Assembly (NCBI GenBank): GCA_003415625.1
Contig: PYIU01000004.1
Coordinates: 4,588,001-4,652,000 of the forward strand
Length of the DNA: 64,000 bases
Source of the DNA: Aquanectria penicillioides
Taxonomy: Eukaryota > Ascomycota > Sordariomycetes > Hypocreales > Nectriaceae
Direction of reading: 5' to 3'
Position 1 is the first letter of the stretch. Each line of letters begins with the position of its first letter. Below, one piece after another: positions 1,601 to 14,000 of the stretch. The notes under the pieces were generated by a model. The model made no database searches. It was not told the DNA's origin and saw only the letters and a list, made by a program, of their open reading frames with translations. The position numbers and the translations under genes were made by a program.

Positions 1601-3738
1601 GGTCGCTACTGTATTTGCAGTTGACGGCGTGTCTCGTCTTTTTCATGAAGCACAGGGACTCTGTCGGTCACATCGCAATTTGGATTGCCGACACGGCGCA
1701 CAGCTGATGGGCTTCCGGAATCGTCGTCTTTTTTTTTTGTTGATGAAGATGAGGGCTCCGTGCTGTTTCCGAAACTGGAGGCATAGCTTCTGCTTTGTTT
1801 CTCAGGGGATAAGCCGATGCAAGTATGCAAAGAGTAGAGAAATTGTACATGTTGAAGATATCTCCGAAAAGTTTTGTCCGTTGACGTGTGGGTCATCTCG
1901 GAGACGCTTGATCACCTATGTGGGTCTTTTCGGACTTGGAGAATGCGCTTCTGAGACGGGCGGAGAAATCCATTCAGATGGTTTTAGAATAGTTTAACTT
2001 GTAAGCTCCCTATGACGTATAGAAAAAGCTACGGTTCAAAGACTCGGGAATAATTGTAGAGGGGCCAGAGAGAGACGACTGCGGAGAGTCTGAATTACAA
2101 ACCTAACATGTGGTCACCATTATTCCAACCTCCGTAACTGTAAAAGTAGGTGGCATCCCTTAAGAACATCGTGTTTCAGTATAGTCATTTAATATGTCGT
2201 AACTAAGATAGAAAAAATTATCGGTGCGCAGTGGCAGTGCCGTGAAGTGGATCATCAGATTCGCCGTCGAGGGCTGGGTTATACTGAAATATGAAAGGTT
2301 CTCTGCTTTGTCTACCTTCATTTGATGGTGCTAATTTCTTCCGGGTGTTTCACAAACTCTAAAAAGCCGTTGTATCGTCTTTATCCGGTCCGGACCCATT
2401 AAGTTAAATTGCGACTCTATCTCATCATAACCCACTTCGGACTTTCTTCGCCAATATTGACAACTGGTGACGCTGTTTTGCGTGGAATACCAAACCTCGT
2501 AGTTGGGGAAGAAATCACCTAAGCGAAGGAATAAATATGCCGGACAGTGTTACATACACGCCAAATCCTATGAAGATGAACATGAATCACTAAGATTTCA
2601 ACTTTGGTAATAACAGGGGCCCAAACCGTCATGTCAGTCCTACAGGCACCCTTATTTCTATGCATCACATTTTCTCAGTTCAACTACGAAGGAAATGAAT
2701 ATCCGGTATGAAGAGAATGTGAATCCATGCGTCTCGGAACGTGGGACAATCTCATAAATATGTTGGGCCACCGTTCCGATTCCGATATGTACCACAATCC
2801 GATGTGGGCCGCCATCCCGGGTGTACCACCACCCGATTTAACTGGCGATCCCAAAAGTAGGTAAAGAATTTCTATCCTTTTAGATTGAGAATTGGAGATC
2901 TGAAATATGGATAAATCTTTTTAAGGGGGGCATGATCGGATCCGGTTGGTCAGCACGGGTATTTTCTGAATGCGATTCATTGTAGGTATATCTATCCATG
3001 ACGTTTATCATTTTATGCCATCTGACAGGCCGAGCATTTATTTCAACGATTATATACTATTTGGCTTGTCCTTTACATATACCATTAGAATGGCGACTAT
3101 TAAAAACTCTCTCACGTTCACTAAATGAGGACATATTCTGCTATCCTATGGACCGTAAAACCTCGGCTGGGATTGTCATACCATAACGGCATTCCTATGA
3201 CCTGTTCCCCGCAGTTATAGCAGGGATATTTATGGTTATGTTGCTCGAAAGGCCGAAAGAGTGGAGCAAGGCAGGGAAGCAATGCAGCTTAAAGCGATTA
3301 TTCCGAGCAGAGCTACATCAACTCTTGAATTGGAACCAAAGGCCTATGCCCTAGTAATTATTTACCTTGCTGTTTCCATGGTTCCTTGTTTTCCCCGCAA
3401 TATCGCAGAATTGTGGGGAGCTAGCCCAATCCTCGATATTCAGTTCCTCCAGCAATAGCAATCCATGCTCTGTTCGATAGTATCCGCAAGCATGCAGAAG
3501 TATCCCATTTCGATGTTGATACCGAATTTCATTCTCCTCCACATACCGAGTGGTTTTCACACATGCGTTGGTCATGCTAGCGCAATGTTGATCAGACCGT
3601 TCCCAAGTATATATAGTTCCATCTTCAACCATCAGTCGTGGGGATATTGGTTAGTAGCAGCCACAGAGTGTTCACTGCCCTCGTGTTTTGGTCCAATAAC
3701 TATTCTTTTGGAACCATACTTTAGCATTCAGACTTACC
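1601..3738. other. AT-rich stretch without a supported gene
   Basis: About 2.1 kb with short open frames only. None carries recognisable domain motifs or consistent intron signals. A 93-codon minus-strand frame at 3351-3632 has reasonable codon use but no recognisable relatives, and it may be a fragment of a lost gene. The section next to 1600 may hold further decayed transporter sequence, but I could not match it. The part just before 3739 is the presumed promoter of the beta-helix gene. Confidence 0.4.
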
Positions 3739-5227
3739 ATGGTTTCCCTGCTTCTCGCATCGTTGCTCCCGACAGTGGTCTTAGCCACGCTCGGCGTGGA
3801 AGACCCATCGGACGTCATTGACCCGGACCTATGGGCGGATGACAATGCACTTCTTGCAGACTACAGTGTCAAGGTTCCAACTACGATGCCCTCCGAACGT
3901 AAGTTGACTGTAATTAACTTCACCGAAATTATTCAGCTAATCACTATTTAACCCATGTGGTAGTTGTTGCGGCATATGAATACGACACCGACACTTCACT
4001 TGACCATGTATTCCTATCCGTCAATGCCAACGACACTAGCGTCATCATTGCAGCAAACGCATCCACCCTCACGCTAACTGATGTCGAGATTCTGAAATAC
4101 GGCTACTACTCGAACCTCTATGCATCAAGCTTCTGGGGCTTCAACGCCGCAGTTAATATTGTAAGCCTCACTGTATTTCAAATGCCTCGAGAACTATTCA
4201 CTTACATTAATATCCCAAGGCAAATGCCACTACCGCATACATGGAGGAGGTTAACATCACCGTACACAATGGGGCTGCCAACATCTACGCCTACGGCTCA
4301 GACACTGTTGTCTACATCAGTGATTCCTGGCTATACAGCAGCGGTCCCGTATCCCATGCCCTATATGCCTCTGGCAATGGGACCATCATTGGGAAGAACC
4401 TCCAGGTCTATAGCGGAGGCATGCGATCTTCCGCATTCTCAGGTGACGAGCCGAAAGGTGATGTCTACGTTTACGACTCAATTGCCCGCACGGCTGGGGT
4501 CGGATCCGCTACGTATTATGCCCTTGGTACTATCTACGCAGAAAATGTTCTTTCTCTGTCTGAAAATGGCCCAATAATCTTCATGGACGGTAACCGGAAT
4601 GCTACTCTTGTTAACTGCGATGCCACTGCGGGTCTTCTCGGAGGCGTAGCCATTTTCAGTTCAGCCCAGCGAAGATCAGGCTCGACCTTGAAGCTCCAGA
4701 AAACCAAGGTCACAACTATTAACAATATTCCCGGACTTTGGTTTGGAAATGTCGTCGCAGATATCACTTTGGACCGTGTTGAATTGGAAACTGACTCTGG
4801 GGTCCTTATTGTGGCAAACTTTTCGTCCATCACCCAAGATTTCGACCACTACGCATCCTACGAAGAGAACACCAGTCTCCAGCCTTCAGAGCTAACTGTC
4901 ACCATCACTGAATCTGAGCTGGTCGGAGATATTGTGGCTTACAATGGTAGCTACATCTCTTGGGACCTCGGATCCTACAGCTCATGGACCGGCGCAGCTA
5001 CCTCTGGATATGGAGATGCATACTTTGACATCACTTTGGATAGTACCAGTAATTGGACTTTGACGGCGTCATCGACTATCCAAACGCTCGTTGATGCCAA
5101 CACTGATTTATCAAACATCTTCAGCAATGGATTTACTTTGTACTATAATTCTAGTGTGTCGGAAAACAGCTGGCTAGATGGAGAGACAATCTCGCTCTCC
5201 GGAGGTGGATATGCCGTGCCATTCTGA
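3739..5227 (+). CDS. Secreted parallel beta-helix protein
   Basis: Three exons: 3739-3898, 3964-4160 and 4220-5227. Both introns (65 and 59 bp) have GTAAGY donors and AG acceptors and keep the frame, giving 454 residues. The protein starts with a signal peptide (MVSLLLASLLPTVVLA) and has no other membrane segment. The body is rich in Thr, Ser, Asn and short beta-prone repeats such as YASGNGTIIG, AYNGSYISWD and NGPIIFMDGN, typical of right-handed beta-helix proteins of the pectate-lyase-like fold. Many N-x-S/T sites suggest heavy glycosylation. I see no catalytic signature that assigns it to a lyase or hydrolase family, so it is better called an extracellular or cell-wall beta-helix protein. 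It stands alone between a decayed region and the photoreceptor-like gene. Confidence 0.8.
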
Positions 5228-5802: not shown

Positions 5803-8481
5803 ATGTCCGACCCGCTCTCCATCACGGCGAGCGTCATAGGCATCATCGGCGCGGCTCTTCACGGTTCTAAGCGGCTCTTCGAGTTCATCGACGGGCTGCG
5901 GAACGCACCAAGCGATATTGCGGCTCTCAGCACCGATCTGAGGGCGTTGTATGAAGTTCTTGCTCGTCTCTCAAGCATACAACAAGACCTGGCGAACAAC
6001 CTGGCACTTTGCGATTGTCTAAAAACACCACTTGAAAATTGCTTGAATATCTTTGACGATTTTATGCTCGTGTTGCAGAGTTATACCCAGGTTACAAGAG
6101 AAGGCACCGTCAGGATCCGGACATGGAAGAATATTGCGTGGGCATTCAAGGACAAAGAAATACAATTGTTTCGAGATACTATTGCCACTTACAAGGGATC
6201 TCTTGATTTGGCAGTCAATGCCGCGGTGTTGTAAGTATTCCAATTACTGATAATCCAATGGTGTGTTGTTAATATTTGCCATAGCTCGACCGTCGCCGCC
6301 ATAGACGAGCGGACAAAACGTTTAGAGTCCGGTTTTAAAGCCGAATTTAGGACCCTCCAGTCCAAGATTCAAGGGCTCGACGCTGATCGCATAGAATTAG
6401 CCAGCATAGTTGGACATGAAGGTTCTGATTGGCGCGGCACCGATGCAAATTTTGCCCTGGGAAGATTCCTTGAGTTTGCTGGTTCGATATGCGATTCTCC
6501 TCCCTCTTCATTTCCCGGGTCACCAGTACTCTCACACTCTGAAGCTGGCAATGATCACGGTACGATGAATGGGACACAGGACTCATTATCAGAATTGAAC
6601 AGTGTCTCAGCCACTTGGCCGCAATTATCCGCTCCATTAGCAATTCGGGAATCTGTTCCGGATATCAAACCGCCAGATACGACGCAAACTTCACGGACAG
6701 AAGTCCAAATGGATGGATCACCCCGAAAGGCAACCCTTTCTCAGGCACAGGCGCCCAAAACCACAAATTCCACAAGTGCATCTCAAGTCTTAGTGAAGCC
6801 CGCCTCTGTAAACAGTAGAAGCGGCTTTGATATGCTGAGAGCGCTCGGGCTCGTCGCTGCCCGAAAGAACCCCAAGGTAAACCTGGGGGCCATTGACATG
6901 TCGTGTTCCTTTGCTGTCTCCGATGTTACTTTGGATGATCATCCGATTATTTACTGCTCTGATAACTTTCAGCAACTCACCGGATACAGCCGCTACGAGA
7001 TTCTTGGTCGAAACTGTCGGTTTTTGCAAGCCCCCGACGGAAGGGTTGGGCGTGGGTCGCGCCGGGAGTTTGTTGATAATGGTGCTGTCTTCAATCTCAA
7101 GACATCTATCCAAGAAAGAAAAGAGATTCAGGTGTCCTTGATCAACTATCGGAAAGGAGGCAAACCATTTCTTAACCTACTGACAATGATTCCAATACCG
7201 TGGCAAAACGAGGATGAGATACGATATTACATTGGCTTCCAAATTGACTTGGTGGAGTCTCCAGATGCTATAACTCCAGGCGATGATACAACGAGTTTTA
7301 AAGTGAATTACAAGCACTCCGACATTGGACAGTATATATGGACTGCACCACAGCCCAACCTTTCTGACCTGGATAGTGGAAAAACGCTCGGCGTGGAGGA
7401 CGTGTCAGCAATTATGCAACTATTCAAATCTACTGGCCCAGCATCGAGCATTGTAAGGCAATCATGGGACACGATGCTCTTGGAGAACATGGATGACCTT
7501 GTCATGGTCCTATCTCCCGACCTTGTCGTCTCGTATCTTTCGCACAAATGTCGCCATATTCTCGAATATGATTCCACAGATGTGGTGGGTACTAAACTAT
7601 CGAGCATATGCCACCCATTCGACACGCCGCTTGTGGAAAAGCGGCTTAGGGATGTGGAGGTTGGCGACGAAATCGATATAATCTTCAGAATCAGGAGGAG
7701 ACACAGTGGGTACCTTTGGTTCCAGGTACTTGGATCTGTCTTCTCCAACAATGATGGAGGCCGCGGCTTGCTGCTTTTTGGACGCCCTCATCCCGTGTTT
7801 TCTCTCAGCCGAAGGCTCGTCGAATTGAATGACAGTTTCGTCTACAATGAGATTTGGACAAAGCTTTCAACTTTTGGACTGGTGTTATTTGCTCCCTTCA
7901 TTGTTCTCCCCTTATTAGGATATGAGTCACAAAGCCTTATCGGACAAAGTATCCAATCTCTCATCCCTAAAGAGTGGCGGTCAGAGATCGAGCGTTGTTT
8001 GGAAAAGACAAGGCGTGGCACAATTTCCGTTGTGAAGCACGAAATTCAAGATGTCTATGGCCACCTTCACCAGGCAGAAACAAGATTATATCCAATGGCT
8101 TCATCTGCTGGAGAAAAGGCTTCATTTATCTTGGCCCAAACCAATTTATCTTCCGTTTTACCGCTTCATAAAAGTATTGAGTTAACCAGTGCGCATGGTG
8201 AGGCATTGGCACTGAAAGACAAGGCCGAAAGGCTACTTTGGCTTGACCACCGGCTACCGAAATCCGGGTCAGATATGGATATAGAACAAAAAGGTACACT
8301 TGGACCTAGGGACAACTTGTTCTATGAACTAGAAGCCACTCATTCTATTAATTGGGAAACAGAAGTGGGGCGTTTAAAGGAGGAGAATCGAATCCTCACA
8401 GAGGAGTTGCTTAAACGACTGGGGTTGGAGGGCCCTCTTGGAGATGACGAAAAAGTTTCATCGAAGACGGACGCTTTTTAG
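5803..8481 (+). CDS. White-Collar-1-like LOV/PAS protein fused to a STAND-type N-terminal domain; no GATA zinc finger
   Basis: Two exons, 5803-6230 and 6285-8481. The 54-bp intron (GTAAGT...ATAG) joins the frames exactly, giving 874 residues. Residues 1-200 or so match the 'Fungal N' domain usually found at the start of STAND/NLR-like fungal proteins (opening MSDPLSITASVIGIIGAALH). Residues about 340-460 are a LOV domain very close to WC-1. It has the flavin-adduct motif GRNCRFLQ with the photoactive cysteine at residue 387 (codon 7015-7017), the flavin-contacting Asn residues in NYRKGGKPFLNLL and the Gln in IGFQIDL. A second PAS domain lies at about 535-650 and a third PAS-like region at 665-760. 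A coiled coil (VGRLKEENRILTEELLKRL) ends the protein where WC-1 continues into its GATA zinc finger, which is absent here. Blue-light sensing through FMN/FAD is well supported by residues; signalling through the N-terminal domain is inference. Confidence 0.88.
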
Positions 8482-9223
8482 ACACAAATAACCTAAAACT
8501 CTAGAGCCCTAGATTCCAAGATCAACAACAGTGAAAAGTTGCTCAAGGAGGCGTAGCTCATTGCTGGTATTAGGCGAATGCGAGTCGTGACGAGGCCATG
8601 ATACGTAACACGGTTTGAAATACGGCGTCTGAGGGCATTTATCCTCAGTCAGAGTCTCTTGTGACATCAAAAGCCGAATATAATTATGATTCTCCGCATA
8701 TCTCAAATACATATAAGTGCAACTTTACCATACTTCATGATCTTTTGTGGCGGCATTTTTTAGCGTACCTGATATGGTTTATGGGGCTGTAGTTCATCGC
8801 CTCTAAATAGTGGTTTAAAGTGATGGTATGCTTCAGTGACGTGAAATTTGCTGTTCGGGGGATACGGTGTTGTCAGATCACTTTATGGTCTAAAGCCGGT
8901 GTGCTTATTTCGATTTAAATAGTTTGTTCTTTCTCTTAGGCGTTTAATTGTGCTCGCCAGATAATAACGCTTTTATCAACCGGTTTCGACATATACAGTG
9001 GTAATAGGATGTTAGTTGGCCATGTCCAGGAGTTGAAAGAACCGTGGAAAAGATAGATCTGATGATTCTTTGACCAATGCTGCAACATTAAGCCACCAAT
9101 GCATATAAAAACAGACATCGGATTACACCAGGTCGACGAAAGCCACCCTCGGAGCCTCGACTGGGAACTATGGAAGGTAATAGCAGCTGCCGGTCGTTAC
9201 GTGTACAGGCCTGAGGTGAGATA
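8482..9223. other. Intergenic region without a supported gene
   Basis: About 740 AT-rich bases after the LOV-STAND gene. No residual GATA zinc-finger coding sequence is visible just downstream of the stop codon. I see no convincing gene. Confidence 0.4.
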
Positions 9224-9634
9224 TTGGACATAAAACCCGGAGCAATCATGGTTGCGCCTTCAAATTACACGCTACTGACTCATATAATACATGAGACCGA
9301 GGTTGGCCGAACTTTTGTCTTTCAGCAACAAATCTTCTTGAAGCGATTACGTTTGAGGTTCTACTTGGGATATGAACAGGCTTATTCATCGCATAGACCT
9401 TGCCTTTCCCGCCAAAGTCTGCAGGAGTTTATGCGTTTCTGTCAGGAGCACAACCTTCAACTCATCAGTGATGAGACATATGGCCTATCTGTTTGGGATA
9501 ACACAATGGTCCCAGATGGCCAGTCGTCTCACTCTATTCTATCTATTGATACGACGAATATAATCAACCATGCTCTTGTTCATGCTATTTGGGGGGCTAC
9601 TACATGCTCATTCAGCGCACTTGTTCGATACTGA
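9224..9634 (+). pseudogene. Relic of a PLP-dependent aminotransferase (ACC-synthase-like)
   Basis: The segment about 9390-9610 encodes a stretch resembling the cofactor-binding core of fungal 1-aminocyclopropane-1-carboxylate-synthase-like class I/II aminotransferases. It reads LQEFMRFCQEHNLQLISDET, then YGLSVWDN and SILSIDTTNIINHALVH, ending with IWGATTCSFSA where an intact protein has WGMSKDFGANG. The lysine that binds PLP is not present, the preceding part of the fold is only traceable in scraps, and the frame ends at 9632-9634. It is a fragment rather than a working enzyme. Confidence 0.6.
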
Positions 9635-9639
9635 GCAGC

Positions 9640-10082
9640 GGTACCCAATGATATTTGATCTGTATGGTCTAGGCTATGTGTTGTTGCAAATTGGGTTATG
9701 GTGTGACCTTAAACATATTACAGATGACCGACTTCCAGCTTTTAAATCTAGAATCAACAACTTTGGCTTTAAAATGGATGAAGAAGCAAAAAGTGTCAGG
9801 TCAGACAATTGGTTGGTGGAAAGCATCGCAATGTGGCAAGATTCATTGGTCAGGCGGCAGGGTTTGGTTCATCAGCGTGATGGCATTGCTGCCTTTGAAT
9901 CACCAAGACGGAGTTTCCAAGAAACGCTCGTCAAAGAACTTCCAGAGCTGCTCTTTGAGTCAATAAGGGAAACAAATACCAAAGTCGTTGCTCGTTGCTT
10001 AACCAGTAGAAAGCCCAGTCAAGTCTCCTATATTAGCTGCAATGAAGCTTTCCCAACTTACATGACAGTATTTAGTTATTGA
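9640..10082 (+). pseudogene. Possible relic of a kinase-like (HET-s/LopB-associated) C-terminal region
   Basis: In an overlapping frame, right after the aminotransferase relic, the sequence reads IFDLYGLGYVLLQIGLWCDL. This resembles the 'D-YSLG-VLLEIGLW' signature in the catalytic-loop-distal part of kinase-like domains of fungal prion-inhibition/HeLo proteins. The rest (to the stop at 10080-10082) is moderately similar at best. No ATP-binding part is visible upstream. Two unrelated domain fragments side by side suggest genomic debris. Alternative: a spurious open frame. Confidence 0.35.
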
Positions 10083-11018
10083 TGTTTGCAGCCTAGCAGA
10101 TTTCTATCGCCTAAGCATTATATTTTGCATTCTAAAATGACTTTTAATTTACTATCTGACTCTCCCTTCCCTTCCCTTTGAAAATGTCCCAGTTACCGGT
10201 ACATTAGGAAAATTACCCTGTAGAGCCTTGGAATTCTTATGCACGCAGAACCTTGAAGCAAACTGAAAAGCCGATGAAAATTAAGAGCTGCACATTTCAA
10301 GTTCGTCAACAATATGCATGGTGATGACATCCTGCAATAGGTATTTCTGGTAAGCCTTCGTCAGTCTTGACCTCGAGATCATCCAGTGCCAAGCCGCCGT
10401 TCTTGATATCGCCTTGTGTTGCCCCTCATCGGCCTTCGCGTTAATTCGAAGCCTTCATTTCCCCGAAGCCGACGCTATGCCATTCTCGTCATCCTATAAA
10501 GATCAAGGATTTGGGCTGGAATTATGGGGAATATTTCTCAAGCAGATCGGCTGTCGCGTTAATCCAGGGCCATACTTAGGCCGATGCCGCCCCCAAACCC
10601 ACGCCATGATTGCGGCTAACAATACGGCCGCCTTCACTTGACCTGATTACCGGATTACTGTCTGAACAGCCCACAAATGCCTCCCTATTATGGACTAGGA
10701 GATACTTGCTACATAGCTTCTAGGACAAGCTTCCTCGCCCGAATAAATTACAACTACCTTTTGATTGGTCAACTCTATTTCCCTATGTTGGTGGTACGTT
10801 AAGCTCCACGTCTCTAGAATGCCTCGCCTTGGCATACTCTAATTGGATTCTCGGCCCATCACGCGGTGGTCCTTGGCATTTTGGGGTTTCTTGGGGTTGC
10901 GGGGTATAAGTTTCAATCGCGAGCTGGTCTTGTCGTCAAATATACGAATCTCATAACTAGTCTGTGGAATCTCAAGCCAACAAGTTCAGCTGCCCTGTCA
11001 GGTACGGGCCTAGCAATC
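10083..11018. other. Region upstream of the GH115 gene
   Basis: About 930 bases with no confirmed gene. The frame of the GH115 gene is open back to about 10818 but has no ATG there. The nearest upstream ATG (10819) is in another frame and meets a stop after seven codons. Any signal-peptide exon for the downstream gene would have to lie here, but I could not identify it. Confidence 0.4.
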
Positions 11019-14000
11019 ATGTTTGAGGATACTTTCGTTGAGTTCGCTACTTCCAATCACGATGCCGCCTGTCTTGTTGGCGCCACCATCTTGATAGATG
11101 AATCCGACTTTGCGGGGGTCAAGATTGCCGCCAATAACCTGTCTCAGGACTTTGCCAAAGTCACGAGGAAAGATGCCAGCCCTGTTAGCGTAGTGCACGA
11201 CTGCAAAGTCATTGCAGGCTCCGCAGTATCAAGGGTGGCCATTATTGTTGGTTGCATCGAGTCTAGCCCTCTACTCCAACGCCTTGGAAATGAACACGAC
11301 ATCGACCTTAGCGGTATCCGGGGGAAGTGGGAAACATTTCTCACAGCCCTGGTGGACAAGCCTTTCCAAGGGGCATACGACAGAGCACTTGTCATTGCCG
11401 GGAGCGACAAGAGAGGCGCTATTTTTGGAACATATACTCTATCTGAGCAGATTGGTGTCTCTCCGTAAGCGTTCCAGATACCTACGGGCATATTCTTGTA
11501 CTCACGACCCGGCCAGGTGGTACTGGTGGGCAGATGTGCCCTCAAAATTTAATCCAATCATTTATGCTACCCAAAAGACAACAAAGCATGGCGAGCCAAG
11601 CATCAAATATCGCGGCATCTTCCTAAACGATGAGGCCCCAGCCATGACGGGCTGGGTCCTAGAAAAGTTTGGCAAGTACAATTCCGAATTTTACAAGAAG
11701 GTGTTTGAGCTGTTACTGCGCCTCAAGGTGGGAATAAGAAACTCATTTCAACACTCCGGATATCAATGCTGATTGTATAAGGCAAATTTTATGTGGCCTG
11801 CTATGTGGCCTGGCTATCCAAACCCAGGAGCCAACTTCTTCGTTGACGATCCAGACAACCAGCGAGTAGCCGATGACTATGGCATTGTAATGTCAACATC
11901 TCATCATGAACCCATGCAGCGTCTGACCAACGAGTGGTTCCTTGAGAATCAGGAGAAGAGTTGGAACTGGGAGACTAACAAAGAGAAGATTACCGATTTC
12001 TTCTCAGAAGGCGCGAGCAGGGCAAAAGGATACGAGTCTTACTTTACTGTCGGCATGAGGGGGGAGTACGATCGGAGAATTGAGGGCTCTGATCCAGCCG
12101 CGATCATCACCGACGTCATCAGAACTCAGCGCAAGGTGATTAGCGATGTGTACGGCAGCGCAGACAAAGTTCCTCGTGCGTAGCCGTCCTCAACATGCCG
12201 TTCTACTTGGAGTTACTAACAGCATTCATCAGAACTCCTTGCACTGTATAGAGATATTGAGCAGATTTATGATACTGGCCGAATCGAGCTGCCTGATGAC
12301 GTGACGCTGATGTTTCAGGATGACAACAACGGAACTATCCGCCGATTGCCCACCACGAAAGAGGCCGCGAGAAAGGGCGGTGCAGGAGTCAGTCAATAAT
12401 TACTCCTACTTCACAGTTCCAATTTGATGGCTAACATTTTGGTAGTTATACTACCACTTTGAGTACGTCGGACTCCCACGCAGCTACAAATGGACAAACA
12501 GCGTGTCCCTGGTATGTCTTAGCGCTCTTCACTTCTCTTTACTTTTTCCTAACGAGATGCAGGGGAAAGCATGGCACCAGCTCAGGCACGCGTACAACCG
12601 GAATGTCAGACAGATCTGGCTATTCAATGTTGGTGACTTGAAGCCCCTGGAGACACCAATTACATGGGCAATGGCCCTCGCCTGGAACGTGGAGAGCTTT
12701 AAACCCGACAGCCTTCAGCCTGTTCTTCGTACTGTAGCAGCGAGGGATTTCGGTCCAGAGCTGAGCGACGAGATTGGTGGCATCTATCACAGATACACTC
12801 GCTTAGTTTCTCTACGCAAACATGAGCTCATTGAGCCAGACACGTTTTCAATGTTACATTACAGTGAAGCTGAGACAATCGTCGACCACTGGAAAGACCT
12901 CCTCACTAGGGCAGAGTCAGCATACAACCGCCTTACAGAGGAGCAAAAACCTGCAGCATCTCAACTCATCCTTCAGCCCGTCAAGTCGACTTATGTCTTC
13001 ATTGCCCTACGAGTAATGCAGGCACGCAACCAACTATACGCTCATCAGAGACGCAACATGGCCAACACGACTGCCCGGCGCGCACTCGATCTGTTTGACA
13101 CGGACTATGACGTGCAGGAAGAGTTTCACGCACTACTAGGAGGGAAATGGAATCAAATGATGCGACAACCACACCTTGGTTACGGAGATACATGGCACGC
13201 ACCTTCTCGCGATATGATCATGGGTCTGGGCTACGTACAACGTCGTCAAGACTCAAACTTGATTGTTGGTCAGATGGGAATTTCTGTTGAAGGCCATGCG
13301 GGCGTTCGTCCAGGCCGGATCAATGAAGAGTCGGAACGCACGCATCCCAGTCGCCGGGATCTTGTGCCAGGGTTAACTCTAGGTGCCATGAGCCGATATG
13401 GCCCTGCTACTCGATGGTTTGACATCTGGACCCGTGGCACTCCAACCATTCACTGGACGGCGTCAACTCCATATGCTTGGCTACGATTATCTAGCTATTC
13501 CGGAATTTTGGTGCCTGGAAGGGATGATGCACGTGTTGAGATCTCTATTGACTGGGCGCAAGTCCCAGAGACCTTTGAAGACGAAGTCTTGATCGATGTT
13601 CGATCTGCCATTGGAGATTTCGAACAGATCCATCTACCCATTACCGGACGCCACGTGCCAGCTTCCTTTATTGATGGCTTCGTGGAGGGTCCCGGCTATG
13701 TTTGCATCCCTGCTTCAAAGGGGCTTCTTGCATCTGATTACCTGCATATGCCCGACAGCGGCAGGTCTGAGAATGGATCTGTCGGACTTGATATCACTCG
13801 TGATGTTACCAACACCACCCAATTCCTCGAGTATCCTTTCTACCAATTCTCAAACAAAAACTCAGCAAAGGTGTCGCTTGAATTTGGCATCACACTAAGC
13901 ACATCTTCAGAGGATGTGACTTCATATGACCTTCAAATAGATGACGGGCCAATCACGCATCACAACATTGAGGAATTCACCGACGAGAGTATTCGATATG

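Follow-up and report, generated by a model that had tools for sequence, protein, structure and literature searches.

A HeLo-like head on a putative White Collar-1-type LOV photoreceptor in Aquanectria penicillioides and other Hypocreales

Gene structure and domain composition

We analysed a 64-kb stretch of the genome of Aquanectria penicillioides (hereafter the window; contig PYIU01000004.1, or C8, of a 53.8-Mb genome in 13 contigs), and in it a gene at 5803..8481 on the forward strand, to which the window genes and ORFs below also belong, that joins a helical head of the type known from fungal NLR proteins to a LOV-PAS-PAS tail of the White Collar-1 (WC-1) type. Judged by its sequence, it is a genuine coding gene. 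The frame 5803-6230, with a start codon at 5803, is spliced to 6285-8478 to yield 874 amino acids (aa), and the stop occupies 8479-8481. Exon 1 (5803..6230) covers residues 1-142 plus two bases of codon 143, contains the main helices of the PigL_N/HeLo-like head, and matches PF17111 by itself (E 1.3e-21); exon 2 (6285..8481) is a single open frame carrying the head remainder, linker, LOV, PAS-B, PAS-C, coiled coil and stop. The sequence-only reading regarded the 54-bp intron (6231..6284, GTAAGT...CATAG, with a branch-like CTGAT at 6247) as joining the two halves in frame. While the intron, its signals and the frame hold up, it lies not between the halves but within the PigL_N domain, at residue 142/143, and the halves share one open reading frame (ORF), 6286-8478, in which the C-terminal part of the head, the linker and LOV follow each other with no intron between. 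As these parts are read without any splicing decision, they support the fusion more strongly than did the earlier intron argument. An interruption at this point (profile position about 138-144) is shared by six other PF17111 genes in the genome, and at the splice join the spliced protein aligns without a gap to most of its relatives, P0132 being gapped there (P numbers denote protein clusters).

In Pfam, PigL_N (PF17111, earlier Helo_like_N) is found at residues 3-171 with E 3e-21 and 76.2 bits, against a curated cut-off of 27.2. The C-terminal part of the head (6285..6522) extends to about residue 222 and ends near a motif common to the relatives, CDSPPSSFPGSP. Passages of PMC9815663 count Helo_like_N (PF17111) as an NLR effector domain in fungi and class HeLo-like domains with the MLKL four-helix bundle. 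The head resembles the PF17111 heads of NLRs in its score over the curated cut-off and in the uncharged, hydrophobic start of helix 1 (residues 4-20), and a four-helix bundle is tentatively predicted for it. The sequence-only claim of a STAND/NLR-type helical head preceding a WC-1-type LOV-PAS-PAS with the frame kept is supported. The head differs from those of NLRs in that no NACHT, NB-ARC, repeats or other NLR part appeared in a Pfam scan of the 874 aa, its partner being a photosensor instead. HET-S/HeLo structures were not among the fold matches listed, which does not exclude such a match. There are 33 PF17111 matches genome-wide, counted by exon piece; recent copying of the head from a same-genome paralogue was rejected, since the next-best head match among the best candidates scored is 29% identical.

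The head is followed by a variable linker (6523..6822, residues 223-322) and by the LOV domain with its N-cap (6823..7254, residues 323-466), which Pfam recognises as PAS_9 (residues 358-465), and which among solved structures is matched best by VVD (E 4e-36), then by ENVOY and phototropins. The photoactive Cys387 (7015-7017) and the flavin-site residues Asn430, Asn440 and Gln462 (7240-7242) are all there, in agreement with the earlier note. Next come PAS-B (7477..7791, residues 541-645) and PAS-C (7792..8181, residues 646-775), with PAS_3, PAS, PAS_4 and PAS_2 matches between residues 541 and 742, and a WC-1-type coiled coil (8311..8409), after which the LXXLL motif, the basic patch and the GATA finger of WC-1 are missing. 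In tblastn, the 202-residue C-terminus of WC-1 matched the coiled coil in the window and then nothing better than E 0.096 among the best 30 matches; the finger by itself gave E 0.16 or worse, with nothing under E 8 in 8200-11500, and none of the three forward frames across 8300-12000 contains a C-x2-C...C-x2-C pattern. No missed downstream finger exon was thus found in the window, and the description of a coiled coil kept without its GATA finger stands.

The same genome has a complete WC-1 with finger (C9:3062763-3065926), whose nearest named proteins, out of 133 compared, are from Mariannaea (78.8%) and Neonectria (77.6%). The window protein resembles WC-1 (WcoA/LreA/BLR1) in having LOV, PAS-B, PAS-C and coiled coil in the same order, with identities to its own-genome counterpart of 76% in LOV, 49% in PAS-B and 50% in PAS-C, but a PF17111 head replaces the WC-1 N-terminus, and the GATA finger, basic patch and LXXLL are absent. 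Its LOV with N-cap and Cys also recalls VIVID/ENVOY, the best solved-structure matches, and its short relatives likewise stop soon after LOV. The N-terminal extension of VVD, however, measures about 70 residues (PMC10056346, in part) and is not a PF17111 head, and VVD-type short LOV proteins have short extensions only, as opposed to the head, PAS-B/C and coiled coil of the 874-aa window protein.

Distribution of the architecture

Custom head and LOV profiles detected both domains together in 36 of 209 protein clusters, in addition to the window copy, so that the architecture, of which the sequence-only reading knew no described example, is not unique. The named carriers belong to Fusarium, Ilyonectria, Dactylonectria (the latter two Nectriaceae) and Purpureocillium (Ophiocordycipitaceae), all of them, Fusarium included, Hypocreales, and the fusion is therefore present well beyond this fungus. 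Among the best 120 of 1190 matches to the whole protein, PigL_N with a long WC-1 tail was seen in P0001-P0004, and a short form in P0064; further family members came from the best 120 of 664 matches in a profile search. Residues 1-230 as query yielded 18 proteins at E <=0.001, 17 of which combine PF17111 with PAS_9. The remaining one, P0127 from Thelonectria olida, carries the same head type with a different PAS lacking the LOV Cys motif, and is annotated as a histidine kinase. Another head of this type, on the ankyrin-repeat protein P0163 of Purpureocillium lilacinum, is ~90% identical to that of the LOV fusion P0003.

The GATA finger is kept in only three of the 36 relatives (P0001-P0003), and PAS-B/C without the finger in three others (P0004, P0157, P0158), as in the window copy; P0136 has kept the coiled coil with PAS-B/C and finger gone, and 30 of the 36 end no more than 98 residues after LOV. 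Many of the short forms are 500-540 aa long, and many database models, at 264-469 aa, seem incomplete; since either end of such a model may be missing, these architecture counts are approximate. The structure predicted for the short form P0137 has a predicted local distance difference test score of 55. Several family genes bear the database names “white collar 1” or “GATA transcription factor”.

With P0138 (half a LOV) excluded from the residue counts, 34 of 35 family clusters retain the photoactive Cys, 32 and 33 the equivalents of Asn430 and Asn440, and 28 the Gln182 equivalent. In P0140, from Fusarium oxysporum, Gly takes the place of this Cys. Where VVD has Tyr40, a position that we match, from structure alignment and partly from the numbering of the structure construct, with Asn319 of the window copy (6811-6813), Tyr is found in 31/35 relatives and in 163/163 other LOV clusters. 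Tyr40 is described as a dimer contact of VVD in the part of PMC4682037 consulted. With these four residues in place, the window LOV is expected to bind flavin and to form the adduct; with Asn at the Tyr40 position, VVD-style dimerisation is less sure.

In the LOV and PAS segments, the window gene differs from its own-genome WC-1 at 0.49-0.68 of third codon positions and at 0.13-0.42 of first and second positions, with no stop; we give no ratio of nonsynonymous to synonymous divergence for this pair, since synonymous divergence is saturated. Exon 2 remains open over 731 codons and shows codon-position bias. Under simulated unconstrained change of 212 codons, stop-free runs made up 10.8%, 0.5% and 0.1% at 10, 20 and 30% divergence. 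By comparison with the window tail, own-genome and Fusarium WC-1 are 95, 94 and 93% identical in LOV, PAS-B and PAS-C. Conservation among ten Fusarium short forms is 91% in the head, 76% in LOV and 49% in the linker, whereas LOV identity among the WC-1 proteins of seven Fusarium clusters is 98.9%; of the three parts of the short forms, the head has thus changed least, and LOV is freer than in WC-1.

No description of a head-LOV family was found in the literature searched (titles, abstract starts and selected passages), including the relevant parts of PMC10219052. The 2023 review “Fusarium Photoreceptors” (PMC10056346), in the sections seen, gives WcoA, VvdA, LovA and LovB as flavin receptors, in a list that it calls not necessarily exhaustive and that does not feature this family. 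LovA and LovB (RGS-LOV; section 4.3) are, like the present proteins, fungal LOV proteins other than WC-1/VVD, but they are 674 and 663 aa long, LovB has an RGS domain, and a PF17111 head figures in neither description there. Thus WC-1-derived LOV receptors are known, and the sequences were already in databases, while a HeLo-like head on such a receptor appears to be new as far as the searched literature reaches. Since related fungi share the combination, which was apparently built repeatedly, the head-LOV proteins look like an undescribed light-receptor family rather than a one-off accident.

Origin of the fusion

Trees were built with a selection of available WC-1 proteins, P0005, which has an internal duplication, being left out of the LOV-PAS-PAS test. 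Over 459 LOV-PAS-PAS columns, a single clade of the five long forms (window, P0001-P0004) was rejected (p 4.7e-5): P0001 and P0002 are nested in Fusarium WC-1, and P0003 is placed beside the WC-1 of P. lilacinum. Smaller clades were not rejected, whether the window copy with Ilyonectria (p 0.18), with P0003 added (p 0.146), or with P0001/P0002 added (p 0.069). Heads tell a different story, as P0001 groups there with the Fusarium short forms (93/100), in line with a mosaic plot along P0001 in which similarity passes from the short forms to WC-1 at about residues 380-430, and the P0003 head is sister to that of P0163, the ankyrin-repeat protein of P. lilacinum (100/100). A single clade of all fusion heads was also rejected (p 5.7e-8), so that one origin of all fusions fails both on the head and on the LOV-PAS-PAS of the five long forms. 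These conflicting histories of heads and tails suggest that this PF17111 head type met a WC-1 tail repeatedly, most clearly in Purpureocillium, whether through new fusions or through gene conversion of tails. Against repeated joining speaks the LOV domain alone, for which a single origin of 14 fusions was not rejected (p 0.146, 143 columns). Within Nectriaceae, one origin was not rejected on heads (p 0.19) or on LOV (p 0.34 without and 0.35 with P0001), and the LOV of the window copy groups with the Fusarium short forms (97/79; a first LOV tree left it unplaced), which fits one nectriaceous fusion.

Genome setting

Adjoining PAS and GATA matches on C7 probably represent WC-2. A separate VVD-like LOV gene is found on C8 (1226392-1226811, L012), where the match crosses two stops, probably an intron. 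Five flanking ORFs were scanned with Pfam, and the sole match was a piece of a glycoside hydrolase family 115 gene downstream, at 11194-11769 (PF15979, E 1.7e-18). Two overlapping ORFs at 9215-10082 have no Pfam match and by eye give the impression of a broken aminotransferase; upstream, ORFs at 3700-5227 have a signal-like start by eye, the longest (4211-5227) being without a Pfam match. The 575 bp upstream of the gene contain four overlapping CGATC/GATCG words (three sites), a number reached by 3.4% of window stretches and too weak to use.

Possible functions

We lean, at somewhat short of an even chance, towards a second blue-light receptor, derived from WC-1, in which the N-terminal HeLo-like (MLKL-type) head may have replaced DNA as the output. 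This reading starts from the architecture and its distribution, the intact photoactive Cys, the absent DNA-binding parts, and the conflicting head and tail histories of some relatives. Duplication of WC-1 in a nectriaceous ancestor would have supplied a tail (LOV-PAS-PAS-coiled coil-finger) that came to lie behind a PF17111 head, and lineages would later have dropped the finger, and often everything past LOV, with head and LOV retained. Blue light would produce the flavin-Cys adduct, the conserved Gln would signal to the N-cap, and, since the head hangs on the N-cap via the linker, light could alter head association. HeLo/HELL/MLKL bundles act on membranes or partners, and by analogy the head might then do the same; we infer that light may be coupled to an immunity module. 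A bolder version, unlikely at present, would make the protein a light-gated member of the MLKL/HeLo superfamily, in which LOV-driven clustering of a membrane-acting bundle would turn blue light directly into a cell-fate decision without transcription; in Hypocreales, the same head type would have been combined with WC-1 tails at least twice.

In the main rival to a head output, which we hold to be rather less probable than it, the protein would modulate the White Collar complex: the long form would pair with WC-2/WC-1 via LOV/PAS and act at promoters without a finger, or block WC-1, short forms would be VVD-like through LOV-LOV contact with WC-1, and the head would be a localisation or stability device only. 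The complete WC-1 on C9 and the presumptive WC-2 on C7 would supply the partners, PAS-B, PAS-C and the coiled coil are retained in the window copy, and VVD acts via LOV contact with WC-1 according to parts of PMC10056346. The Neurospora WC-1 finger is described as dispensable for light responses in passages of PMC6628569, and WC-2 could still carry the window protein to DNA, which counts against an output moved to the head. However, the LXXLL preceding the finger is reported in the same passages to recruit NGF-1, and it is lost in the window copy, though kept in its own-genome WC-1 (LGGLL), P0001, P0003, P0004 and P0136, making direct promoter action less likely. Moreover, PAS-B/C are among the least conserved WC-1 parts in the window copy and missing in 30/36 relatives, the head is better conserved than LOV, and the Tyr40 equivalent is Asn.

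It is improbable, in our estimate, that we are dealing with a decaying WC-1 duplicate, fused by chance and progressively losing function along with its finger. Fast evolution of LOV and PAS-B/C, the many truncated-looking models, and one Cys and five Gln changes in the family would agree with decay, but the long open exon 2 with its codon-position bias, rarely obtained stop-free under simulated unconstrained change, the near-universal Cys, and the recurrence of the combination in four further genera do not. Two adjacent genes misread as one would be a very far-fetched explanation, because part of the head shares an intron-free ORF with LOV, and the same join appears in database annotations of many species.

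Fungal blue-light signalling is mostly told as WC-1 acting on DNA, damped by VVD. A family that has kept the photosensor, discarded the DNA-binding end and acquired an NLR-type head in front would constitute a separate output branch, and this in well-studied genera. If these two parts did come together repeatedly, their combination probably brings some benefit, and the short forms might serve as light-controlled clustering modules.
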